From a virus, in IMG/VR virus record IMGVR_UViG_3300044846_002188, positions 1-33,681 of that record: a stretch of 33,681 nucleotides of DNA; one strand, written 5' to 3'. The notes under the pieces are model-generated. The model searched no databases and had not been told where the DNA came from. It saw only the letters and a list, made by a program, of their open reading frames with translations. This document shows, in pieces, positions 9,189 to 33,612 of the stretch. A program made the translations under genes and the position numbers. Each line of letters starts with the position of its first letter. The stretch's first letter is position 1.

Positions 9189-11873
9189 ATGGCTGTCGTT
9201 GTTCCAGTTATATCCACATTTGATTCGCGTGGAATCACGAAAGCAATTCGTGACTTCAAAAAACTTGACGGTGCCGGACAGCGCAGTGCTTTCGCATTGC
9301 TCAATACCGATAAGGCTTTCACGAGCGCAAGCAAAACATTCGCAAAGTTTGGTGGCATCGCAGCAGGCGTAGCAGGAATTGTTGGTGGCAGTTTAGCGAA
9401 CGCTGCTTATGAGTCGCAGAAAGTAATGCGTCAAACCGAAGCGATCATTAAAGCAACCGGTGGCGCAGCAGGCATGACATCAAAACAAATTGGTGATCTG
9501 GCTAATTCTTTGTCTTTGAAAACCGGCATTGATGATGAAGCGATACAAACTGGTTTGAATTTGCTTTTGACGTTCAAGCAGATCCGCAATGAAGTTGGCG
9601 CGGGAAATGATATTTTCAACCGAGCAAGCGCGCTAAGTCTTGACTTGGCGAATGTTTTTGGCTCTGTTGATTCGGCTGCTATTCAACTTGGTAAAGCATT
9701 ATCAAACCCAATCAAAGGTATAACTGCTCTTACACGTTCTGGTATTAACTTCACTGACCAACAGAAGGCACAGATCAAAACTTTGATGGCATCTGGGAAA
9801 GTCCTTGAAGCGCAGAAAATAATCTTAGGCGAAATTGAATCACAAGTCGGTGGCACTGCTGCTGCTAGTGCTACTGCTTTTGATCGTATGAAAGTTGCCA
9901 TTGGTAACGTTCAAGAGGAATTGGGTGGCGTACTCATTCCATACATTGAACGGTTCGCGACATTTGTTGTTGATCGTGTTGTGCCTGTTATGTCCACGTT
10001 TGCTGACATCGTTGGCGAAAAGGGTGTCGGCGCAGGCATCACGTATTTGACCGGAAGCATCTTGAATGGTATTTCTAGTTTGGGCACTTTCGGCAAGCTC
10101 GTAGTTGGTTTGACTGGTGCGTTCATTGCTGTGCGTGTGGCAACCATTTCATACACGGCTGCTATGGGTGCAATGAAAATTATTACGACGTTATCCAGCG
10201 GTGCGGTTTCTCAACTAATTACGCGTTTGGGGCAGGCGAAGATCGCTATGTTGGCAGCCGGTGGCATCACAGCGTTGCTTACATTGGCTGCTGCTATCTA
10301 TGGTTCCTATGCAAAACAAAAGTCAAAGGCACAACAAGCAACAGTGGACTTTGTTGATGCTTTGGAATTGGAAGGCGACGCACAAGACAGAGCGTTGGCA
10401 AACTTGTATCGCGCGAATCCAGCGTTCAAGAGTTCTATTGATGTTCTGACGCAATATGGCGCGTCAATCAACGTATTGAAAGATTACGTCAATAACAACA
10501 AAGGTGCGATTACTGATTGGGCTGCTGCTGTTGATTCTGTTGCAGCAGATGTTGAGAACCTTGACCAACAAACGCGTAGCGCAAACCCAAACATTGATAC
10601 ACAGGCTGCTGCTTACGATAACTTGCGCCAAAAGATACCTGCACTAACCAATGCCACCAAAGCACAGATTGATGCTTTTATTGCTTCCATCAAATTGTTC
10701 CAATCAATGCGCAAAGAAACACAAGCAACAACTGACGCGTTAGCAATTTTCACTAGCGGTCAAAACAGTGCAGGTGGCGCAACCGGCGGTTTGGGCAGTG
10801 CTGTTGATAAAGCGAAAGAAAAAGTACGTGCGTATGTTAGTGCTTTGAAAGGTTTTGGCTCTGATCAAAAGTCATATACGAAAGCCATCAAAGATACGAC
10901 GAGTGCGAAGCAGAAACTTGAAACCGCCACAAACAAAGTGTCTGTGGCACAAGCTCGTTATGACCAGATCGTGCGTGGCTTTGGTGCCAATTCGGATCAG
11001 GCGAAGGCTGCACAAGAAGCATTAGAACAAGCACAACGCGATCAGACGCGCGCTACTTTGGATTCGGAGAAAGCATCGTTCGCTGTGACTGATGCCGAAA
11101 AGGAATTGAATGATCTACGCGCTTCCGGCGAGGCAACAGTTCAAGAGATCCGTGAAGCAGAGATTGCTTTGGCAGAAGCAAAGTTGGCACAAACAGAACA
11201 GACTATTGCTTTGCGTGATGCAAACAATGAAGTTATCACTGCACAAACAACATTGAACGAATTGATCAATGGCGCAACAACTGAAAGCACTACATACAAA
11301 GATGCTTTGAAAGAGTTGAACGATGCCAAAGCAGATGAAGTGGAAGCAGCAAACAATGTTGCCGAGGCAATAGATCGCGAAGCCGAAGCAAAGTTGCGGT
11401 TGGCAGAAGCAGAACGTGAATTGTCAGCAGCACGTGTTGGTGTTTCAAAAGGCGAACGCGCCAAGGCTGAAAGCCAAACTGGTGTTGTTGATGTGACCGG
11501 CAAGCGCAAAGACTTCCTTGCGACGGTCAATAAACAATTGGGCAAAAAGTTCAAGACCATTCAGGGATACATTGACGCAGGAAAGAACGCAACGTCGCGC
11601 GCTGAACGCAAGCAACGTTTCAATGAGTTTGCACAACAAAACGGAATACCGCAAATGGCACGTGGTGGCATCGTGAGCCAACCCACATTCGCGCTCATCG
11701 GGGAAAAAGCACCGGAAGCAGTTATTCCTTTGGATCGTCTTGGCGGTGGTGGCGATACATACATTGTGAATATCAATAGCAAGATCGCTGATGAAACGTT
11801 GCCGGATCTTATTGTTGCTGAATTACGTAAGTTCAATAGGCGTTCCGGAGCCATCAATATTCAGGTGGCATAA
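9189..11873 (+). CDS. Tape measure protein
   Basis: The 894-residue tail length ruler, the longest gene in the window. Residues about 60-230 hold the usual domain with MRQTEAIIKATGG, ALSNPIKGITALTRSG and QIKTLMASGK. Two hydrophobic, potentially membrane-active stretches occur around residues 304-330 and 350-374. A long alanine/glutamate-rich coiled coil spans about 565-755. The C-terminus carries the classic ARGGIVSQPTFALIGEKAPE and VIPLDRLGGG signature. At roughly 1.5 angstrom per residue this predicts a tail of about 130 nm. The next gene starts on the base after its stop. Confidence 0.95.
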   Translation: MAVVVPVISTFDSRGITKAIRDFKKLDGAGQRSAFALLNTDKAFTSASKTFAKFGGIAAGVAGIVGGSLANAAYESQKVMRQTEAIIKATGGAAGMTSKQIGDLANSLSLKTGIDDEAIQTGLNLLLTFKQIRNEVGAGNDIFNRASALSLDLANVFGSVDSAAIQLGKALSNPIKGITALTRSGINFTDQQKAQIKTLMASGKVLEAQKIILGEIESQVGGTAAASATAFDRMKVAIGNVQEELGGVLIPYIERFATFVVDRVVPVMSTFADIVGEKGVGAGITYLTGSILNGISSLGTFGKLVVGLTGAFIAVRVATISYTAAMGAMKIITTLSSGAVSQLITRLGQAKIAMLAAGGITALLTLAAAIYGSYAKQKSKAQQATVDFVDALELEGDAQDRALANLYRANPAFKSSIDVLTQYGASINVLKDYVNNNKGAITDWAAAVDSVAADVENLDQQTRSANPNIDTQAAAYDNLRQKIPALTNATKAQIDAFIASIKLFQSMRKETQATTDALAIFTSGQNSAGGATGGLGSAVDKAKEKVRAYVSALKGFGSDQKSYTKAIKDTTSAKQKLETATNKVSVAQARYDQIVRGFGANSDQAKAAQEALEQAQRDQTRATLDSEKASFAVTDAEKELNDLRASGEATVQEIREAEIALAEAKLAQTEQTIALRDANNEVITAQTTLNELINGATTESTTYKDALKELNDAKADEVEAANNVAEAIDREAEAKLRLAEAERELSAARVGVSKGERAKAESQTGVVDVTGKRKDFLATVNKQLGKKFKTIQGYIDAGKNATSRAERKQRFNEFAQQNGIPQMARGGIVSQPTFALIGEKAPEAVIPLDRLGGGGDTYIVNINSKIADETLPDLIVAELRKFNRRSGAINIQVA

Positions 11874-12671
11874 ATGAGTGGCTTGAATGACATTGGCACA
11901 TACAAGGTTGAACTTGACGCAGGTTTTTACCAGAATGTTTTTACCCTTGACGATGATGTTCTAGGTATTCTTGACGACAACTTTTTAGAAGGTTCTACAA
12001 CTTTCTTTGATGTGACTGAATATGTTGTTGGTGTTTCTATAAAACGTGGGCGCAGTAGCCAAGACGCGCAGTTTGGTGCTGCTACTTGCAGCATCACTAT
12101 TGATGATTTGCTAGGTCAAGATAAGTTCAGTGTTGCCAATAGTGCCAGTCCGTATTGGAATGTTGATCGTGGGCGTCTAGGTTTTGAACCGCGCAGGCAG
12201 GTACGCATTTCACGCAACAATGAGTTTTTGTTCATTGGTTTCATCGTGCATTACAACACAGAGTTTAGCATAGATGGACACAACATGATCAGTATTGAAT
12301 GCGCCGACGCGTTCCTGAACTTATCAACAACAACTATCAATGGTTTTACGCCACCAGCAGAAACATCAGGTGCGAGGGTGGACAGGATTCTTGGCTTGCC
12401 AGAAGTAAGTTTCCCGACTGATCCCGCGCCAATTATTGATGCCGGTGTTGCCAATCTTTCAAACCTTGATGTTGCTACACAAACGCCATTGGCGTATTTC
12501 AACATGCTGGTGGCAGAAGCAGAGCAGGGACGTTTCTATATTGATCGCAATGGGGCGTTGAATTGGGAAGCACGCACACCTAACAGCACAGCTGAATCAC
12601 CGACAATTATCTTCGCTGATAATGATGCCACTAAGATTCCGTATGCGACATTGGAAGTTGTTTATGAGTAG
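11874..12671 (+). CDS. Tail-tip protein, N-terminal part
   Basis: A 265-residue protein following the tape measure. It contains DVTEYVVGVSIKRGRSSQDA and AATCSITIDDLLGQ, then RLGFEPRRQVRISRNNEFLF, MISIECADAFLNLS and TPLAYFNMLVAEAEQGRFYI, the pattern of actinophage minor tail (distal-tail/hub-like) proteins. In related phages this region continues without a break into a second domain. Here it stops at VVYE and the matching continuation is encoded by the next gene in another frame. It may therefore be half of a naturally split protein. Its own start codon lies immediately after the tape measure stop, suggesting coupled translation. Confidence 0.85.
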   Translation: MSGLNDIGTYKVELDAGFYQNVFTLDDDVLGILDDNFLEGSTTFFDVTEYVVGVSIKRGRSSQDAQFGAATCSITIDDLLGQDKFSVANSASPYWNVDRGRLGFEPRRQVRISRNNEFLFIGFIVHYNTEFSIDGHNMISIECADAFLNLSTTTINGFTPPAETSGARVDRILGLPEVSFPTDPAPIIDAGVANLSNLDVATQTPLAYFNMLVAEAEQGRFYIDRNGALNWEARTPNSTAESPTIIFADNDATKIPYATLEVVYE

Positions 12672-12679
12672 GTACCGAC

Positions 12680-13225
12680 ATGGCTGAAATTATTGCCAGA
12701 AAAACATCTATCAGACCAGACAGTATTCTCAATGATGTTATCGTTATCGTTGCACCTAATCCTTCGGAGCCGACACCAACAGACCAACAAAGCACAGATA
12801 CAACGTCACAAGATAACTATGGAGTTCAAAGTATCGTCATTACTGATAGCCCATTATTGACTGACGCTGATGCTTTGGTGCTGGCGGAATATTTGTTGCG
12901 CGCGGATCCTAACTATTGGTTCACAGGGCTTTCTATCAATATGCACAGACTGACAGACCCACAGCGCAGCGCAGTGAGCACTCTTGATATTGGCAGCTTC
13001 GTATCGGTCATCAAGTCATTCAAATTTGGCACGCCATCTGTGGTGCAAAAAAACTTATACGTTGAAGGAATAAACCACCGGATCACTACGACCACCCATC
13101 ACATTGACTTGTATTTTTCACCTGTCGGATATTCCCAAGAATGGGGTAGTGTTACGCCAACACTGACTTGGCAAAACGTACCCGCCGGACTATCATGGTC
13201 TAATCTCATCTGGACGATCTTGTAA
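12680..13225 (+). CDS. Tail-tip protein, C-terminal part
   Basis: A 181-residue protein that looks like the second half of the preceding tail protein: SILNDVIVIV, YGVQSIVITDSPLLTDADAL, VLAEYLLRADPNYWF, TLDIGSFVSVIKSF, YVEGINHRITTTTHHIDLYF and a C-terminal tryptophan-rich NLIWTIL. In homologous single-chain proteins these segments follow the VVYG-type strand on which the upstream gene ends. It has its own ATG with a weak TAGGT 7 bases upstream. A slip from the preceding frame is not supported, because the -1 frame contains a stop at 12665-12667. Confidence 0.8.
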   Translation: MAEIIARKTSIRPDSILNDVIVIVAPNPSEPTPTDQQSTDTTSQDNYGVQSIVITDSPLLTDADALVLAEYLLRADPNYWFTGLSINMHRLTDPQRSAVSTLDIGSFVSVIKSFKFGTPSVVQKNLYVEGINHRITTTTHHIDLYFSPVGYSQEWGSVTPTLTWQNVPAGLSWSNLIWTIL

Positions 13226-13234
13226 GGTAGCAAT

Positions 13235-14413
13235 ATGGCAGGCACAACGACAAACTTTGCGATTCCGTATCCATCTATTACTGATTACGTAACTGATGGT
13301 GCCACAGCTATGCGCACTATGGCTGAACAGGTTGATGGTGTTTTGTTCACTGGTTCTTCATCAGGCAATCTGTTGATCAATGGAGCTATGCAGGTCAGCC
13401 AGCGTTCTGCTGTTGGCACAGCAGTTACAGGTTTGACAGGTACTGGTTATAACACTGCCGATAGGTTTGAATTATCAATTACAACTATGGGTACATTCAC
13501 CCAAACAACTATTGCTGAAGCACCTACTGGTTCAGGGTTTCGCAACAGTTTGAAACTTGCCTGCACAACTGCTGATGCTTCACCTGCTGCTGGCGACAAC
13601 ATTATTCTTAGACAGAAAATTGAAGGACAGAATGTGCAGGCAGTGCGTAAAGGCACAGCATCAGCGCAAACCCTTTCATTGTCTTTCTGGGTTTATGCTT
13701 TTCAAACAGGTACTTTTATTGTTGAACTGGTTGATACTGATAACAGTAGATCGTGCAGTAAGGCTTACACCATCAGTGCTTCTAATACTTGGGAATATAA
13801 AACAGTGTTGTTCCCTGCTGATACAACAGGTGCTTTTACTAATGATGCTAATGAATCGTTGCAGGTGAATTGGTGGTTGGGTGCTGGCACAACTTTTACT
13901 TCTGGCACGCTGGCTACAACTTGGGGTGCAACCGTTTCTGCTAATCGTGCTGTTGGGCAAACCAACTTGGCTTCTTCAACTAGCAATACTTTCTTTGTTA
14001 CTGGTGCGCAACTAACTGTTGGTTCTGTTGCTACACCATTTGAGTTCAAATCTTTTGCTGATGACCTGCGAGAATGCCAACGGTATTACTGGCGTTATTA
14101 CAGTGGTGCAAGTGGTTCATATTTCACCAGTTATTCTCTCAATGCGTATTCAACTACGAATGTAAACGGTGCTGTACCAATGCCTGTAACAATGCGAAGT
14201 ACGCCTACATCATTTGATGTTTCAAGTGTTCAGTTTGATGATGGTCCTACCTCATACGCTTTGACCACAATTACCTATGACGGTGTGGCTTATGCAACAC
14301 CATCATCAGCAACAATAACTATCAACAGAGCAGCAGGGGGTTTGACTACTGCTCGTTCATATGCTGTCAGAGGGGTTGCCCCTTCCTTCTTTGGATTTGG
14401 GTGTGAACTATGA
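13235..14413 (+). CDS. Tail appendage / receptor-binding protein
   Basis: A 392-residue beta-rich protein. It shows the recurrent phage pattern NLLINGAMQVSQR (about 45-57), LRQKIEGQNV, LSLSFWVYAFQTGTF, TWEYKTVLFPADTTG, LGAGTTFTSG, TFFVTGAQLTVGSVATPFE, then FADDLRECQRYYWRYY. This is a jelly-roll-like carbohydrate-binding type module widespread in environmental phage tail fibres. It probably contacts the cell surface. AAGGT lies 8 bases upstream. Codon use shifts towards A/T-ending codons and CpG is scarcer than in the flanking tail genes, consistent with exchange of host-range genes. Confidence 0.85.
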   Translation: MAGTTTNFAIPYPSITDYVTDGATAMRTMAEQVDGVLFTGSSSGNLLINGAMQVSQRSAVGTAVTGLTGTGYNTADRFELSITTMGTFTQTTIAEAPTGSGFRNSLKLACTTADASPAAGDNIILRQKIEGQNVQAVRKGTASAQTLSLSFWVYAFQTGTFIVELVDTDNSRSCSKAYTISASNTWEYKTVLFPADTTGAFTNDANESLQVNWWLGAGTTFTSGTLATTWGATVSANRAVGQTNLASSTSNTFFVTGAQLTVGSVATPFEFKSFADDLRECQRYYWRYYSGASGSYFTSYSLNAYSTTNVNGAVPMPVTMRSTPTSFDVSSVQFDDGPTSYALTTITYDGVAYATPSSATITINRAAGGLTTARSYAVRGVAPSFFGFGCEL

Positions 14414-14610
14414 GCAAGTATTTTTATGTTGATGTGGTTATGCGTAATGATGATGTGAAGCGTCATATCATTATGCCAACAGGTGATAACTCGTACACAA
14501 CATTTCCATTGGGGGATTTCCCTGATTCACCTGAAATGATTGCGTATCTTGCTTGGGTTGATGAAGGTAACACAGCAGAAGAATGGCAACCAGAAAGTGA
14601 AGGTAACTAA
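14410..14610 (+). CDS. Small acidic protein between fibre genes
   Basis: A 66-residue acidic protein starting in an ATGA overlap with the fibre gene, with TAATG overlap into the next. It begins with strands (YFYVDVVMRNDDVKRHIIM) and ends with a helix (DSPEMIAYLAWVDEGN) and a charged tail. Location between two appendage genes suggests a fibre chaperone or small structural role, but no family is recognised. Confidence 0.75.
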   Translation: MSKYFYVDVVMRNDDVKRHIIMPTGDNSYTTFPLGDFPDSPEMIAYLAWVDEGNTAEEWQPESEGN

Positions 14611-15368
14611 TGGCTGGTCTTGGCGCAAGGCTTTTCCCTGCATTCAGTAAATTGACAGCAGCACAGGTGAATGGTTATTTGATGGATCAATCCATTATGC
14701 GTTTTGCTTCTGCTGCTGTGCGTGATGCAGCGTTTGGTGGTGCTGGTGAACCAACACTTGCTGAAGGTATGACTTGTTATCTTGATGATACAAACGAGAT
14801 TCAGTCATACAATGGTTCAGCATGGGTGGGTGTGGCTGCTTCATCAAGTGTTGCCAATGTTTCAAGTGGTTTGGTATTTATCAAGTCAGTAACAGCAACA
14901 TCACCTGCAACAACAATTGATGTGAACAATGTTTTTTCATCTCAATACAATGCGTATAGGGTCATTGTTGGTGGTGGAACAGCAACAACGATTGTGACGG
15001 CATCATTACAATTTCTTGATGCAAGTGGTACGGTAACGCCTGCTGGTAATTATTATGAAGCATTTATTTATTCAACTTTTAGTAGTTCAGGCACATTGAC
15101 AGCAAATACAAACAATGGAAATAACTTTCTTCGTGCAGCAGCAGCGATAAATGGCAATGATTGTTTGAACGGTGCTTTTGACATTCTGAATCCGTTTTTG
15201 CCAAAAATTACTAATTATCAAAACGCATCAAACTCTGCTGGTGGCAATGGTGGTATTTCTATTGGTTATCACAATGTCGCCTCTTCCTATACAGGTTTTC
15301 GCCTTACAAGCAGTGTCGTAAGTGGAATTAGTGGAACAGTTGTTTCTGTTTATGGATATCGCATCTAA
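14610..15368 (+). CDS. Minor tail / appendage protein
   Basis: A 252-residue protein. The N-terminal about 80 residues (KLTAAQVNGYLMDQSIMRFA, RDAAFGG, LAEGMTCYLDDTNEIQSYNG, SAWVGV) form a module common in phage tail proteins, with the DTN...Y.GSAWV signature. The C-terminal part is serine/threonine/glycine-rich and beta-predicted, with YNAYRVIVGGGTAT and ending VVSVYGYRI, consistent with a surface-exposed tip domain. Composition is as AT-shifted as in the preceding fibre gene. Confidence 0.8.
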   Translation: MAGLGARLFPAFSKLTAAQVNGYLMDQSIMRFASAAVRDAAFGGAGEPTLAEGMTCYLDDTNEIQSYNGSAWVGVAASSSVANVSSGLVFIKSVTATSPATTIDVNNVFSSQYNAYRVIVGGGTATTIVTASLQFLDASGTVTPAGNYYEAFIYSTFSSSGTLTANTNNGNNFLRAAAAINGNDCLNGAFDILNPFLPKITNYQNASNSAGGNGGISIGYHNVASSYTGFRLTSSVVSGISGTVVSVYGYRI

Positions 15369-15565
15369 TGAATGAAATTGTTGTTGCTGTTATTGGTATG
15401 ACAGGTGCGCTGCTGGTAGCAATGATTGAAACTACACGCAGGCAAAACAATCGTGACCACGCCAGCAATTCAGACAAACTAGATAGCGTCATAACCAAAA
15501 TAGACAACGTGGATAACCGGCTTGGCAACCACATTGACTGGCACGCGCACAAGGAAACAAAATGA
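15368..15565 (+). CDS. Small membrane-anchored coiled-coil protein
   Basis: A 65-residue protein with one N-terminal transmembrane segment (EIVVAVIGMTGALLVAMI) followed by a polar heptad-like helix (DKLDSVITKIDNVDNRL) and a histidine-rich end. This is the layout of DUF2746-like phage proteins found in lysis regions and sometimes called holin-like. The start overlaps the preceding stop and the stop overlaps the start of the lipoprotein gene (ATGA). A lysis role is inferred from position. Confidence 0.75.
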   Translation: MNEIVVAVIGMTGALLVAMIETTRRQNNRDHASNSDKLDSVITKIDNVDNRLGNHIDWHAHKETK

Positions 15566-28373: not shown

Positions 28374-28449
28374 ACTTTTCTATTCGTTATTCGTTTTGTT
28401 GTATGGCATCTTCGTCGCCATCTTGTTAGCGGAACTCATTAAAGGTTGA
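28363..28449 (+). CDS. 28-residue membrane peptide
   Basis: GTG-started micro-protein, MGNKLFYSLFVLLYGIFVAI, then LLAELIKG. It is essentially one transmembrane helix with a short basic end. It fills the gap between two genes and overlaps the previous gene by 11 bases. Support is the clean hydrophobic pattern and context only. Confidence 0.45.
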   Translation: MGNKLFYSLFVLLYGIFVAILLAELIKG

Positions 28450-28451
28450 AA

Positions 28452-29177
28452 TTGCTCACACAAAACAGTGAGTTGAAGCCACATGGGATATTCAACTGGA
28501 CAATTCCGGCTTGGCATACTCGCCTATCTGATGGCACATTCTTCAAGACATGCCCGAACGCCGGTGCTTGTGCGCGTGTGTGTTATGCCAGAAACGGAAC
28601 ATACCTATTCCGCAACGTGGCGCAAGCTCATTTGCGTAACCTTGAAGCGGTATTGAATGATCCGCAAGGCTGGAAGAACGCGATGATCTCGGAGTTGAGC
28701 CACAAACGTTTCCGCGCCACCGGAGATCCGAAGAACATTCCCATTGACACAGATCAATTAGACAATTGGGCAAGAGCATGGATACGAAACGGTGGGAAAG
28801 CGGTACGCATACATGACGCAGGAGACTTTTTCGCGCGTTGGTATTTGGATCTATGGATAGAAATAGCGAACGATGTTCCGGACGTGTTGTTCTATGCCTA
28901 CACGAAAGAAGTGCAGATGTTCCGCGATGTTGAGCAATTCCCTAATAACTTTCGGTTTCTGTTTTCAACCGGTGGCTTACAAGATGACCTGATTGGCGAC
29001 GAACGCCACGCCGACGTATTCCCCAACGATGATGCCATGAACGAAGCCGGATATAGCAGTCAAGAAGCAAATGATCTACTGGCAGTGCTGTTGCCGACGA
29101 ACCGTGTCGGGATCGTGGCTAATAATATTCCCGCATTCAATAAGAAAATGGCAGGACGTAGGTTCTCTGAACTATGA
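28452..29177 (+). CDS. GP88-family protein (cysteine motif)
   Basis: A 241-residue protein of the actinophage GP88-type family: LKPHGIFNWTIPAW, KTCPNAGACARVCYARNGTY, then VRIHDAGDFFARWYLDLW, VLFYAYTKEVQMF and RFLFSTGG. The C-x5-C-x3-C cluster followed by YARNGTY recalls iron-sulfur binding in Gp37/Gp68-like radical-SAM-type phage proteins. TTG 28452 is preferred because AAAGG lies 6 bases upstream; TTG 28446 is an alternative but too close to that site. No enzymatic role is established. It immediately precedes the modification genes and could contribute to them, but this is only contextual. Confidence 0.8.
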   Translation: MLTQNSELKPHGIFNWTIPAWHTRLSDGTFFKTCPNAGACARVCYARNGTYLFRNVAQAHLRNLEAVLNDPQGWKNAMISELSHKRFRATGDPKNIPIDTDQLDNWARAWIRNGGKAVRIHDAGDFFARWYLDLWIEIANDVPDVLFYAYTKEVQMFRDVEQFPNNFRFLFSTGGLQDDLIGDERHADVFPNDDAMNEAGYSSQEANDLLAVLLPTNRVGIVANNIPAFNKKMAGRRFSEL

Positions 29178-29201: not shown

Positions 29202-29813
29202 ATGATTCATGATGAACTCACCCAACTAACCGTCGCAATTGATTCGGTAAAGAATCACCCTCGGAACATTCGTCAAGGTGACGTTGGCGCAATTAGCCAG
29301 TCACTCAAAGAGAACGGTCAATACCGACCAATAGTTGTCCAAAAAAGCACCGGTTATGTTCTTGCTGGAAACCACACGTTGAAAGCAGCCAAAGCTCTTG
29401 GCTGGAAAACAATTGCTGCAACAATGGTTGATTGTGACGATGATCGCGCGTTGCGTATCTTGCTTGCCGACAACAAGACAAATGATCTCGCGTCATACGA
29501 TGAGAACGCACTATCCGAACTGTTGAAGGAACTGGCATCAACAGAACAAGGTTTGTCCGGCACGTTATACACTGGCGATGATCTTGACGACATGCTATTC
29601 AAAGCAGACTTCACACACGGCAACGCTTCCGTAGGTGTTGGTGTGCATGATGTGTCTGATGAATATTACGACAAAGCAATCAGAAGCCTGATCCTTGTGT
29701 ATAAAGAAGAAACACACCACGATCTTGTAAAACGTCTTGATGAGATTGGTGAAAAACTCAAATTGGATAACCATTCAGACGTGGTCCGGCACTTGATTGA
29801 AAAATGGAAATAG
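29202..29813 (+). CDS. ParB/Srx-fold protein of the modification cassette
   Basis: A 203-residue protein. Residues about 10-100 are a ParB N-terminal-like domain: IDSVKNHPRNIRQGDVGAIS, SLKENGQYRPIVVQ, VLAGNHTLKAAKALGWKTIA and ALRILLADNKTND. No partition helix-turn-helix is obvious; the C-terminal about 60 residues are helical (HHDLVKRLDEIGEKLKLDNH). Stand-alone ParB-like proteins of this kind accompany DNA methylases and TET/JBP enzymes in phages, and the fold can bind nucleotides or cleave DNA. AGAAGGAG precedes the ATG. It overlaps the dioxygenase gene by 10 bases, which links the two. Confidence 0.85.
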   Translation: MIHDELTQLTVAIDSVKNHPRNIRQGDVGAISQSLKENGQYRPIVVQKSTGYVLAGNHTLKAAKALGWKTIAATMVDCDDDRALRILLADNKTNDLASYDENALSELLKELASTEQGLSGTLYTGDDLDDMLFKADFTHGNASVGVGVHDVSDEYYDKAIRSLILVYKEETHHDLVKRLDEIGEKLKLDNHSDVVRHLIEKWK

Positions 29814-30700
29814 TTGAACGCCAACTAATTGAATGGCAACCTGAAAAGGATCGCGCAAAACGCTTTGCTGATCTCTTGAATGGTCATGGCAATGACTTTG
29901 CTATACGCGATGCGGAAACCGGTGTTATCAGCGTCGTTCAAAAACAAATTGACTTGGCGAATGTGATTGACCTGCCAAAGTTGTTGCGCCATCTCCGGCT
30001 CAAAGGTTTCTATACGCAAGCCAAAGAAGGCTCAATGCAGAGAGCATCGGGAATAAAAGCGAAGGAACAATGGTTTGGATACATACCGCCAGACACTTTG
30101 AAGCGTCGGTATGCCATCAACCGGTCAGGGCTATATAAAAAGAACGCCGAACTAGGTTTCACCCTTGAAGGACTAACTCCGGTGATGTGGGACGCGTTGC
30201 GCGAGATCGCGCCGGAACAGACACAAGCTCATGAAGAATTGGTTGCGGAGAACATTCACCGTGACTGGTGGCTAGGTGATTGCCCATTCACTTCGGGCAT
30301 TATCAACCATACAAACGTTCTGCCATACCACAAGGACAGTGGCAATCTCCAAGGCAGTTGGTCAATGATGTTGGCATTGCGCAAAGGTGATGAAGGTGGC
30401 GCGCTACACATTCCTGAATACAACGAAACACTTGCTATCCCTGATTGCTCGGTTACTTTCTTCAACGGACAGAAATACTGGCACGGTGTTACACCAATAT
30501 CGTTGCGTGATCGTGACGCGTATCGTTTCACAATGGTTTGGTATGTCAAAGACCGCATCAAATACTGTTTGTCACGTGAAGAAGAACTACATCGTGCAGC
30601 ATCAACCGCCACAAAAGGCAACAAAAGCGTAACCGCGAAACGAAAAAGCGTTGCGGAAGCAAAAAGGAATCAAGATGGAACAGGGAAGCCTGTGGAATGA
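29804..30700 (+). CDS. TET/JBP-type 2-oxoglutarate Fe(II) dioxygenase
   Basis: A 298-residue enzyme predicted to oxidise the methyl group of a base (thymine or 5-methylcytosine) in DNA to hydroxymethyl. The double-stranded beta-helix core is visible: NHTNVLPYHKDSGN with iron ligands H176 and D178, SWSMMLALRKGDEGGALHIP, a third ligand H227 in YWHGVTPI, and the 2-oxoglutarate-binding arginine R241 in AYRFTMVWY. KDRIKYCLSREEEL after the core is typical of the phage TET/JBP group. The N-terminal about 110 residues may bind DNA. A basic, low-complexity tail ends the protein. No cytosine methyltransferase is in the window, which favours thymine as substrate. Confidence 0.85.
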   Translation: MEIVERQLIEWQPEKDRAKRFADLLNGHGNDFAIRDAETGVISVVQKQIDLANVIDLPKLLRHLRLKGFYTQAKEGSMQRASGIKAKEQWFGYIPPDTLKRRYAINRSGLYKKNAELGFTLEGLTPVMWDALREIAPEQTQAHEELVAENIHRDWWLGDCPFTSGIINHTNVLPYHKDSGNLQGSWSMMLALRKGDEGGALHIPEYNETLAIPDCSVTFFNGQKYWHGVTPISLRDRDAYRFTMVWYVKDRIKYCLSREEELHRAASTATKGNKSVTAKRKSVAEAKRNQDGTGKPVE

Positions 30701-31553
30701 TTATGTTTCATTTCATACAGAACAAATAAAGTCTTGGGACATTGATCCGGTATATCCAGTTCTCAAATACATAAACAAAGACGTTGATAAAGAATCTGCC
30801 ATTTGGCTGACATTTCTACACGTCGCGTACTATCACATTGGATCCGCGTTGGCGGTGTGGCACGAATATCCGTATCCTGCCATTCCAAGCGATGACATGT
30901 TGAAACTTCCTTGCGGAACAGAACGACGCGCGCACCGCGATCCCGCCAAATTGAAGAAACATCTAACAGATCTCATAACGCGCGAACCATTATCTGAATT
31001 CGTCAATAGAGCCATCACAAACGATCCGCGCCGGTCTTGGGCACGTATGGAACTGATGCTTCAAACGATCTGGGGCAACGGACGTTGGGCAACGTTCAAG
31101 ACTTCCGAAATGTTGATGAAGGTAAATGATCTTGCGCTTGAAGCAACAGATATGGGACACAAGAACGGATCCGGCTCAAAGCACGGTTTGAAGCTCTTGT
31201 ACCCTAATGCGCCAATGGGTAACTCAAAGCGCGACATTGCCATTCTTGACAAGATCTCTGATGAATTGGTTGAACGGCTAATAGATGCTGGCGCACCGGC
31301 AACTTTGGAAACGGCAGAAACATCTTTGTGTGACTTCCATTCAATGCTTGAAGGCAGGTATTACGTCGGATACGACATTGACGCCATGTTGAAACAATTG
31401 CGTGGTGTACCATCACCACTAACAGAAAAAGCATTTGAAGCAAGGTGCGCCACCATACCGGTGCAGTATCTTGGAGAGATCAACGGTTGGGAGACGACAG
31501 ACGATGAACGAAAACGCGCATACAAACAACGACGCGCAGTCCTTTACCGTTAG
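30675..31553 (+). CDS. Amino acid:DNA transferase (aGPT-PPlase-like)
   Basis: A 292-residue helical protein whose pattern fits the alpha-glutamyl/putrescinyl-thymine pyrophosphorylase-like (amino acid:DNA transferase) family: AIWLTFLHVAYYHIGSALAV, NDPRRSWARMELML (about 116-129), GNGRWATFKTSEML (134-147), and ETSLCDFHSM followed by GRYYVGYDIDAML (about 215-239). These enzymes have a DNA-glycosylase-like fold and replace an activated phosphate on 5-hydroxymethyluracil in DNA by an amino acid or amine. AAAAGGAA sits 7 bases upstream of ATG 30675, inside the dioxygenase gene. Assignment is by motif memory and by the company of dioxygenase, kinase, flavoprotein and acetyltransferase. Confidence 0.72.
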   Translation: MEQGSLWNDYVSFHTEQIKSWDIDPVYPVLKYINKDVDKESAIWLTFLHVAYYHIGSALAVWHEYPYPAIPSDDMLKLPCGTERRAHRDPAKLKKHLTDLITREPLSEFVNRAITNDPRRSWARMELMLQTIWGNGRWATFKTSEMLMKVNDLALEATDMGHKNGSGSKHGLKLLYPNAPMGNSKRDIAILDKISDELVERLIDAGAPATLETAETSLCDFHSMLEGRYYVGYDIDAMLKQLRGVPSPLTEKAFEARCATIPVQYLGEINGWETTDDERKRAYKQRRAVLYR

Positions 31554-31968
31554 GACAGCCACAATTACAGATCGCGCCACTATTGAACTGATCGTTAGGC
31601 AATGCGGGAAACATGTTCGTGATTACTTCGGCATACGCAACTTGATTGACTTTTACCGCAAAGGCGAAGTGTTCATCGTTGAAGATCCTTCACCAATAGC
31701 ATTTGCTGTCGCCAAACCGTTGATACGTGAACAAGTAATCTCGCTATATGAGATAGGCGTTGTTCCACATAAACGCGGTCAGGGCATCGCAACCAAGCTC
31801 ATGTATCACATTGATACCTTGCACCCAGATCGCACTTGGCGGTTGGTTGTGAATGATGACAACGCACCGGCACGTATCGCATACGAACGCTTAGGGCTGA
31901 AAGCATACGCATACGACAAAACCAAAGGTGGCAGACCAATAGTCCGCATGGAAGGAAAACTACGTTGA
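31504..31968 (+). CDS. GNAT acetyltransferase of the modification cassette
   Basis: A 154-residue GNAT-fold protein. The acetyl-CoA loop is GVVPHKRGQGIATKLM (about 85-100, RGQGIA), followed by the conserved WRLVVNDDNAPARIAYERLG segment. The N-terminus is polar and asparagine-rich; ATG 31504 is chosen because the frame upstream belongs to the transferase gene. Together with the neighbouring enzymes a role in acetylating an amine placed on the modified base is likely, as acetyltransferases are known in phage thymidine hypermodification sets. Protein or small-molecule acetylation is an alternative. Confidence 0.85.
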   Translation: MNENAHTNNDAQSFTVRTATITDRATIELIVRQCGKHVRDYFGIRNLIDFYRKGEVFIVEDPSPIAFAVAKPLIREQVISLYEIGVVPHKRGQGIATKLMYHIDTLHPDRTWRLVVNDDNAPARIAYERLGLKAYAYDKTKGGRPIVRMEGKLR

Positions 31969-32777
31969 GGCAAATGATTATCGTCGGATCCGGCGTGGCT
32001 GGCTCATGCGCGCAAAGGATCGCGTCATACTATGGCTGGCAAACAACAGTGATAGATGATCTCCCGACAACGGCTGCTTCACGTGCAGCATTGGCAACGA
32101 TCCGCCCACAATGGCTTGGAGAGAACGGCAGGGAATGGGCGAAAGCATCGTGGCGTTGGTATGAACGTTGGGGTGTGAACATCACCCAACATGGCTTGGT
32201 ATCATCATGGAAGAAACCAGAACCAACACTTCAAAAGGATTGGTGGCTGGTTGAGCCAATCGGCGTACTCGTGATGCCAGATGTTATGGAACGCGTCATA
32301 GATGTGACCGGCACAACCGTCACGACAACCGAACAAACGTTCGTAGGCGACGCGGTACTTGTGGCTGTGGGGGCACATGATCCCAAGCTCTATGGCGACT
32401 TCAAACCAATGACCGGCTGCACGCTCTACAACAATCAAATAGAAATGTCCGGCGCGCCATTGCGTGTGCATCATCTAAGACCATTCCACGCGCTCACAGT
32501 GGCTCAACAAGGAGATACCGTCGTGTTGGGATCATCTATCCACCGCGAGATGGCAAAAGCCGAAGAAGAAGTGTGGCGTATGCTCACCGTCGCGGAAGAC
32601 ATTGGCATTGTGCCCAAGTCACACCAATGGATCATGCGCGGAAACACCAGAGCCACATCACCCAAAGCAACATTGCCCGAAGCAGGCAACCCTTCAACCG
32701 TGATTGGATCGTTGGGACGTTCCGGCTATGGCATCACACCACATGTCATTGAGCAATGGATCGTGAGCCTGACATGA
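31965..32777 (+). CDS. FAD-dependent oxidoreductase (amino-acid oxidase type)
   Basis: A 270-residue flavoprotein. The Rossmann dinucleotide motif is IIVGSGVAGS (G8-x-G10-x2-G13), with D31 closing the second strand in TTVIDD; VLVAVGAH (about 131-138) is the usual second FAD-contacting strand, and the C-terminal VIGSLGRSGYGITPHVIEQW resembles the final FAD motif of D-amino-acid/glycine oxidases. It is short for that family (usually over 330). TTG 31965 has AAGGAAAA at the right distance, better than ATG 31974. In known phage pathways a flavin-dependent lyase trims the amino acid attached to the base; this enzyme is the obvious candidate for that step. Confidence 0.82.
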   Translation: MRQMIIVGSGVAGSCAQRIASYYGWQTTVIDDLPTTAASRAALATIRPQWLGENGREWAKASWRWYERWGVNITQHGLVSSWKKPEPTLQKDWWLVEPIGVLVMPDVMERVIDVTGTTVTTTEQTFVGDAVLVAVGAHDPKLYGDFKPMTGCTLYNNQIEMSGAPLRVHHLRPFHALTVAQQGDTVVLGSSIHREMAKAEEEVWRMLTVAEDIGIVPKSHQWIMRGNTRATSPKATLPEAGNPSTVIGSLGRSGYGITPHVIEQWIVSLT

Positions 32778-33334
32778 TCGTTGTGTATCTCATTGGCGTG
32801 GCTGGCGTTGGTAAATCAACAACTGTAAAGGAATTGACTAACGAATGGTCATTGCGTATGGAAGCACCCAAACCATTCGCGCACCGACACTACGATACGC
32901 CACATGGCAGAGGAATCGTACTTGGCAAAGATGTTGAACCATTCGGCGGAACAGACACGCTCTCATGGACAGCCATCAACCACGTCGGTGACTTCTTCAA
33001 CGCTTGCGCACAGCGCAACGTACAACTAATCATCGGTGAAGGAGATCGCTTCGCTAATGGTAGGTTCTTTGACGAAGCATCAGCACACGGAACGTTGTTG
33101 TTGTTCAGTCTTGAAGCACCTGACGATGTGACCGAGGATCGCAGACAGGTACGTGCCACTACCTTCAACACTCCATTGCAGAACGCTACTTGGATTGCAG
33201 GCAGAAAAACAAAAACAACTACCCTTGCCGAGAGGTATAGAGCATTCCCCATAGATGCGACACAACCAACATCATCTGTTATTCAAACAATCAATAAAAG
33301 AATCAACCAATGCCTATTCAAAGACCATGCTTGA
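32774..33334 (+). CDS. P-loop kinase (5-hydroxymethyluracil DNA kinase-like)
   Basis: A 186-residue P-loop kinase. Walker A is GVAGVGKST (8-16), FGGTDTLSWTAI (about 57-68) is a distinctive segment of actinophage base-modification kinases, LIIGEGDRFANGRFF (86-99) carries acidic residues near the active site, and AGRKTK (142-147) supplies a basic lid. In hypermodification pathways such a kinase phosphorylates 5-hydroxymethyluracil in DNA so that the phosphate can be displaced. ATG 32774 overlaps the flavoprotein stop. Some deoxynucleotide kinases are similar, so the DNA-level role depends on context. Confidence 0.8.
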   Translation: MIVVYLIGVAGVGKSTTVKELTNEWSLRMEAPKPFAHRHYDTPHGRGIVLGKDVEPFGGTDTLSWTAINHVGDFFNACAQRNVQLIIGEGDRFANGRFFDEASAHGTLLLFSLEAPDDVTEDRRQVRATTFNTPLQNATWIAGRKTKTTTLAERYRAFPIDATQPTSSVIQTINKRINQCLFKDHA

Positions 33335-33612
33335 ACTGCAAGCAACTGACAACCAGAACAACCAGATGCGAGACATGCCAACGCCTATGGAACACCGCAC
33401 ACCCGAAACCAATTCGCAAGCACTACCAAGGCACATACCGCAAACGCGCCAAGCTCATACGCGACAACGCCACCCACTGCTGGCTATGCGGGAAAGCAGC
33501 CATTCACAACGATCCTTGGACAGCAGATCATGTGATAGCAGGAGATCCGGATTCACCCTTGGCACCGGCACACAGATCATGCAACAGCAGACGCGGAAAC
33601 ACACCTGTATGA
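33310..33612 (+). CDS. HNH endonuclease
   Basis: A 100-residue HNH nuclease. An N-terminal zinc ribbon (CLNC at 7-10, CETC at 20-23) is followed by a second pair C57-x2-C60, the catalytic TADHVIAG (D73, H74), PAHRSCN (H88, C91, N92) and SRRG. Such HNH proteins lie directly upstream of the terminase genes in many phages and take part in DNA packaging. It overlaps the kinase by 25 bases. If the contig ends join, it would sit about 130 bases before the small terminase gene. Confidence 0.9.
   Translation: MPIQRPCLNCKQLTTRTTRCETCQRLWNTAHPKPIRKHYQGTYRKRAKLIRDNATHCWLCGKAAIHNDPWTADHVIAGDPDSPLAPAHRSCNSRRGNTPV

Follow-up and report, generated by a model that had tools for sequence, protein, structure and literature searches.

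Which modified base would be made by the gene cassette near the end of this phage genome, and from which starting material? The stretch of DNA analysed here (the window) spans an entire IMG/VR record (33,681 bases), and it carries a run of six plus-strand genes, recognised from their open reading frames and Pfam matches. A reading made from the sequence alone had placed a GNAT acetyltransferase and a flavoprotein at 31504-32777, and both genes indeed score above their Pfam cut-offs. The cassette is composed as follows:

29202-29813, plus strand: ParB-N domain protein, first gene of the cassette (PF02195, 33.7 bits, above the Pfam cut-off)
29804-30700, plus strand: TET/JBP 2-oxoglutarate/Fe(II) oxygenase (PF12851, 31.4 bits against a cut-off of 34.9; predicted fold; invariant residues)
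30675-31553, plus strand: ADDT amino acid:DNA transferase (PF18724, 69.8 bits against 26.2)
31504-31968, plus strand: GNAT acetyltransferase of 154 residues, ATG start, stop included (Acetyltransf_1, PF00583, 35.4 bits against 20.7)
31965-32777, plus strand: FAD protein of the DAO superfamily, 270 residues, TTG start (DAO, PF01266, 31.9 bits against 27.9)
32774-33334, plus strand: P-loop kinase of the 5hmU DNA kinase group (Ploopntkinase3, PF18751, 63.8 bits against 27)

In most JBP-type records, TET/JBP or ADDT is preceded by the ParB gene, whose product is likely a DNA-binding or targeting partner. Directly upstream of the cassette (28446-29177) lies a gene of the GP88 family (PF17338, 148 bits), function unassigned, which recurs in two relatives (L012 and L063).

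Four-base overlaps are found between the GNAT and FAD genes (TTGA) and between the FAD and kinase genes (ATGA). The GNAT and FAD frames are conserved at 72-90% identity in relatives, with dN/dS values of 0.07 and 0.15, respectively, and comparison of the sequences confirms that neither frame is due to chance. Measured against the relative L009, dN/dS ranges from 0.07 to 0.16 over the six cassette genes, and all of them therefore appear to be under purifying selection. For the FAD protein, the TTG at 31965 is favoured as the start over the ATG at 31974, since L009 has an isoleucine at the position of that methionine. Both superfamilies are common in bacteria, and the two proteins could in principle be unrelated metabolic enzymes whose genes lie in the cassette by chance. 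This explanation, already disfavoured, is extremely improbable in view of the overlaps, the low dN/dS, the neighbours shared by about 85 FAD-bearing records, and the outcome of a single-protein scan of 84,980 cellular genomes, which reaches close relatives only and found none for the FAD protein.

On the relatives L009 and L061, 239 bases separate the positions matched by the two ends of the window (base 61 at its start and base 33605 at its end), and the small and large terminase subunits are encoded at the window start. A circularly permuted phage genome of about 34 kb thus appears to be nearly complete in this record, with perhaps 100 bases missing, and the absence of a gene from the record is therefore informative. 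In the 5-aminoethyl-dU pathway of phage M6, tailoring is performed by radical SAM and PLP enzymes. That pathway, like the one predicted for the window, is an ADDT-based thymine hypermodification (PMC6449724), but the window has neither of the two tailoring genes: radical SAM (PF04055) has no match anywhere in the contig, and no PLP enzyme is present among the scanned ORFs. Every ORF of at least 300 residues fits another family by Pfam or PHROGs (terminase, portal, protease, capsid, tape measure, tail fibre, exonucleases, DUF932, and ADDT), so that no PLP decarboxylase is concealed among them. The lack of both enzymes, first remarked for the cassette, thus holds across the near-complete genome. 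Like the identities, conservation, and linkage of the cassette genes, this absence of alternative tailoring genes is directly observed. The window also has no match to the thymidylate-synthase-family dUMP hydroxymethylase (PF00303) or to the HMUDK_hel kinase partner (PF18723).

The same four activities that follow the oxygenase in the window are found in Pseudomonas phage PaMx11, where gp46-gp49 comprise a glycinyltransferase, an N-alpha-GlyT FAD lyase, an acetyltransferase, and a kinase in one gene run. Structures have been solved for gp46 (8z2m) and gp47 (8z2o and 8z79). The gene order differs, the GNAT preceding the FAD lyase in the window, and so does the front end: PaMx11 has a thymidylate-synthase-family hydroxymethylase (gp51) and its HMUDK_hel partner (gp50), whereas the window has TET/JBP and ParB instead.

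Because its Tet_JBP score lies slightly below the curated cut-off, the TET/JBP protein was modelled. NgTET1, TET2, CMD1, and CcTet hold ranks 1-16 among the structures matched by the model (Z 15.8-18.9), with FTO and AlkB at 14.2. The residues that would bind iron and 2-oxoglutarate, namely the HxD motif (H176, D178), H227, and R241, are invariant in 32 sequences. The PHROG label of 29804-30700, 'queuine tRNA-ribosyltransferase', was dropped as misleading.

The distribution of the two front ends was followed in 101 non-redundant related records, which were gathered with cassette and PaMx11 queries and whose counts are not those of a random sample. TET/JBP occurs in 79 of these records, the hydroxymethylase in 14, and both together in none, and whole-record searches concur. 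This mutual exclusion has a Fisher p of 6e-12 over the 101 records, gathered by homology and not at random. All 14 matches to HMUDK_hel fall in non-JBP records and, on the tree of the FAD lyase, a single change divides the TET/JBP group from the hydroxymethylase group. With TET/JBP in place of the dUMP hydroxymethylase and no helical kinase partner, thymine would probably be oxidised in finished DNA, and the TET/JBP oxygenase is proposed to hydroxylate it to 5-hydroxymethyluracil. Hydroxymethyluracil had been named before as the substrate of the transferase; this part is kept, and its source would be the TET/JBP oxygenase, not a nucleotide hydroxymethylase.

The oxygenase might instead act on 5-methylcytosine, provided by the host or by a missing phage methyltransferase, and the product would then be an acylated aminomethyl-cytosine. 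The nearest solved structures are all 5mC oxygenases, solved TET proteins act mainly on 5mC, and a C5-methyltransferase is present in a few JBP records. Neither the near-complete genome of the window nor the complete genome of the mycobacteriophage Phelemich, however, encodes a C5-cytosine methyltransferase, which is the reason why thymine is preferred here as the substrate; in addition, the lyase and the transferase are homologous to PaMx11 enzymes that act on thymine. A cytosine substrate is accordingly held to be unlikely.

For the steps following the hydroxylation of thymine, the kinase and the transferase are the first to be considered. The P-loop, D60, E88, and R126 of the kinase (numbered from 32777) are conserved in 11 sequences, PaMx11 gp49 included. 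In this case too a PHROG label, 'terminase small subunit' for 32774-33334, was dropped as misleading. Among PDB entries, the ADDT profile matches the solved ADDT 25qc (E 8.6e-16) and the PaMx11 'Glycinyltransferase' 8z2m (E 1.3e-7). Together with its Pfam score, this relationship speaks for the earlier idea of a transferase that attaches an amino acid such as glycine. By analogy, ADDT is proposed to swap the phosphate of 5-phosphomethyl-dU for glycine, joined via the amino nitrogen. Glycine would be the likeliest amino acid, but it need not be the one used: the lyase product would be identical with every alpha-amino acid that is joined through its nitrogen.

With the FAD protein as a single query, phmmer found a weak match in the PDB (E 0.027), to the flavin-dependent lyase of 8z79 and 8z2o. 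A profile of 42 relatives matched 8z2o over its full length (residues 2-271) with an E value of 2.7e-55, against 7e-11 for glycine oxidases. Since this profile included relatives from PaMx11-like cassettes, a second one was built from members of TET/JBP cassettes only, and 8z2o was again the best PDB match (E 5.5e-9), most strongly over residues 2-66. The AlphaFold model of the protein (pLDDT 95.8) gave the same ranking, with 8z79 placed first by Foldseek and VIA-align (Z 25.1, rmsd 2.7 over 257 residues) and followed by CmiS2 (Z 24.5) and ThiO-type glycine oxidases (Z 22.6). According to its PDB title, 8z79 is the 5-N-alpha-glycinylthymidine FAD-dependent lyase gp47 of PaMx11, and the crystallised sequence was confirmed to be gp47 with a query from L006. 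As judged by sequence profile and predicted fold, gp47 is the best match of the FAD protein among all solved structures, at an identity of about 16-18%.

In glycine oxidase, the arginine of the GxR motif holds the carboxylate of the substrate. The corresponding R229 is invariant in 42 of 42 sequences of the FAD family and aligns with the GIR motif of gp47; the glycines of the dinucleotide-binding GxGxxG motif (G8, G10, and G13) are likewise present in all 42, within a DAO/glycine-oxidase fold. The scores of glycine oxidases come close to that of gp47 (24.5 against 25.1), and the fold by itself was therefore not accepted as proof that the protein is a lyase. The FAD protein is proposed to be a lyase that cleaves glycinyl-thymine and yields 5-aminomethyl-dU, and its closest solved relative agrees with the view that a glycine-oxidase-like flavoprotein of this short length is a specialised lyase. 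As the fold is common to oxidases and dehydrogenases that are not lyases, the enzyme could also oxidise the glycine unit without releasing an amine, or cut on the thymine side to leave 5-formyl-dU, and no aminomethyl base would arise. Such an outcome is very unlikely, considering that the closest solved relative is a named lyase and that the downstream acetyltransferase requires a free amine.

The GNAT carries the acetyl-CoA loop RGQGIA, and its NCBIfam matches are weak and generic. A search of 50,697 phage records gave 13 matches to it: apart from one uncharacterised fragment, all are from Pseudomonas phages (12), which nearly all belong to the PaMx11/Ab18/Epa type. Among phage GNATs its nearest relatives are the gp48-type enzymes, and its pairwise identity to gp48 is about 30%. 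These PaMx11-type relatives appear to be stronger evidence than a generic GNAT match, and they favour the earlier assignment of this protein as the enzyme that would acetylate aminomethyl-dU. N-acetylation of 5-aminomethyl-dU is proposed as its function, the substrate not being readable from the sequence. Since the FAD protein is nearest to gp47 and the GNAT relatives are nearly all of the gp48 type, N-acetyl-5-aminomethyl-dU, the end product suggested by the sequence-only reading, would remain the best reading. 5-AcNmdU is itself a published product.

TET/JBP and the FAD lyase occur together in 65 of the 101 records, and 49 of these 65 cassettes are without a GNAT, so free 5-aminomethyl-dU must be tolerated. 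Each of the 26 cassette GNATs adjoins a flavoprotein gene except one, whose contig ends inside the GNAT. On the FAD-lyase tree, the presence of a GNAT needs at least six changes; its association with the presence of the FAD protein is uninformative (Fisher p 0.76). The acetyltransferase is thus an optional part of the scheme. In a set of marine records (L066, L067, and L072-L080), a GNAT without detectable pairwise similarity to that of the window is found in the same place, and sequence-distinct GNAT lineages thus occupy one slot between ADDT and FAD. In these marine records TET/JBP is shifted to the end of the cassette.

The many cassettes without a GNAT, and the generic NCBIfam matches, would also suit a pathway in which the same enzymes work but the product is not acetylated. 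The GNAT would then use another acyl-CoA or another target (the glycyl stage, or a host or phage protein), and the DNA would end as free 5-aminomethyl-dU or another acyl form. This is rather unlikely, as the phage relatives of the GNAT come almost exclusively from PaMx11-type cassettes and the ADDT-GNAT-FAD slot is filled by two GNAT lineages of distinct sequence.

Taken as a whole, the locus is probably a post-replicative thymine hypermodification cassette. First, thymines of the finished phage DNA would be hydroxylated at their methyl group by the TET/JBP oxygenase, and the P-loop kinase would phosphorylate, and hence activate, the resulting hydroxymethyl group. An amino acid, most probably glycine, would then be put in the place of the phosphate by ADDT to give N-alpha-glycinylthymine. 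The short FAD enzyme would oxidise the bond between the nitrogen and the alpha carbon, and hydrolysis would release glyoxylate and leave 5-aminomethyl-dU. Finally, acetylation by the GNAT would give 5-(acetylaminomethyl)-dU and abolish the positive charge of the amine. We infer each of the reactions from homologues; which base is modified (T rather than 5mC), which amino acid is attached, and in what order the steps proceed are likewise inferred. Protection from host nucleases is the likely use of the modification. A more specific proposal is slightly favoured, in which this is a distinct post-replicative route where TET/JBP, perhaps guided by ParB, makes 5hmU in phage DNA, a single-protein kinase acts on it, and glycine transfer, lyase, and acetyltransferase lead to acetylaminomethyl-dU, with GNATs recruited to their slot more than once.

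Several parts of this scheme have precedents. Lee et al. in 2022 reportedly described flavin lyases and acetyltransferases in thymidine hypermodification pathways, and TET/JBP-ADDT-kinase cassettes are said to have been predicted by Iyer et al. in 2013. The PaMx11 back end is a studied pathway, as far as can be told from the PDB titles and from that of Wen et al. 2024, a paper cited in PMC11946847. With a back end already studied experimentally, the sequence-only reading is both less speculative and less new than it was written. TET/JBP-ADDT-kinase cassettes have also been noted in cultured actinophages (PMC9302106, PMC11955845): Gordonia phages of the DR cluster (CaiB) and the Rhodococcus phage Tonitrus have ParB, TET/JBP, aGPT-Pplase2/ADDT, and a kinase before the terminase, and tblastn found no window-type FAD lyase or GNAT in them.

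Closer counterparts are the Mycobacterium phages Phelemich and Reprobate (Acadianvirus), whose genes 1-5 encode ParB, TET/JBP, ADDT, FAD lyase, and kinase in the order of the window, without a GNAT. Their annotation says only oxidoreductase or hypothetical. With the window-type lyase and two other JBP-type lyases as queries, these two phages were the only full-length TET-type relatives among the phage records. The combination of TET/JBP, ADDT, GNAT, and FAD lyase was not found in 50,697 cultured-phage records at the sensitivity used. With a PaMx11 back end, a known TET/JBP-ADDT-kinase association, and a full combination absent from the phage records, the cassette is regarded as a variant of a known pathway, in which the back end would be PaMx11 chemistry and the TET/JBP front end what differs.

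If this is true, one decorated base would be reached from two starts, either from hydroxymethyl-dUMP before replication or from the oxidation of thymine by TET/JBP in finished DNA. The clean either/or pattern of the front ends makes this two-route idea testable gene by gene. Phelemich and Reprobate, which are cultured, lack only the acetyltransferase and are for this reason predicted to carry 5-aminomethyl-dU instead of its acetyl form; their virion DNA should hold that base if the scheme is true. The acetyltransferase has been gained or lost repeatedly, which suggests that it depends on the host whether masking of the amine's charge is of importance.

Besides these arrangements, several variant cassettes are found in the related records. 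Where the gp47-type lyase is absent, ADDT is followed by a second flavoprotein-like family of about 295 residues, with a GMG Rossmann motif and a GWRP motif (L092, L093, L094, L106, L110, L111, L115, and L122; e.g., L093:8888-9784), which aligns with the lyase profile over its full length (hhalign probability 87%, E 3.9e-6). In L090, L098, L104, L114, and L117 (e.g., L098:8881-10193), the FAD lyase is separated from ADDT by two inserted genes, one for a protein of about 290 residues that has no Pfam match and looks like an amidoligase by eye, the other for a low-molecular-weight phosphatase; the insertion hints that yet another end product is made. In L110, a viral contig of jumbo size (327 kb), two TET/JBP and three ParB genes adjoin ADDT, the second flavoprotein type, and a GNAT (11178-15416).
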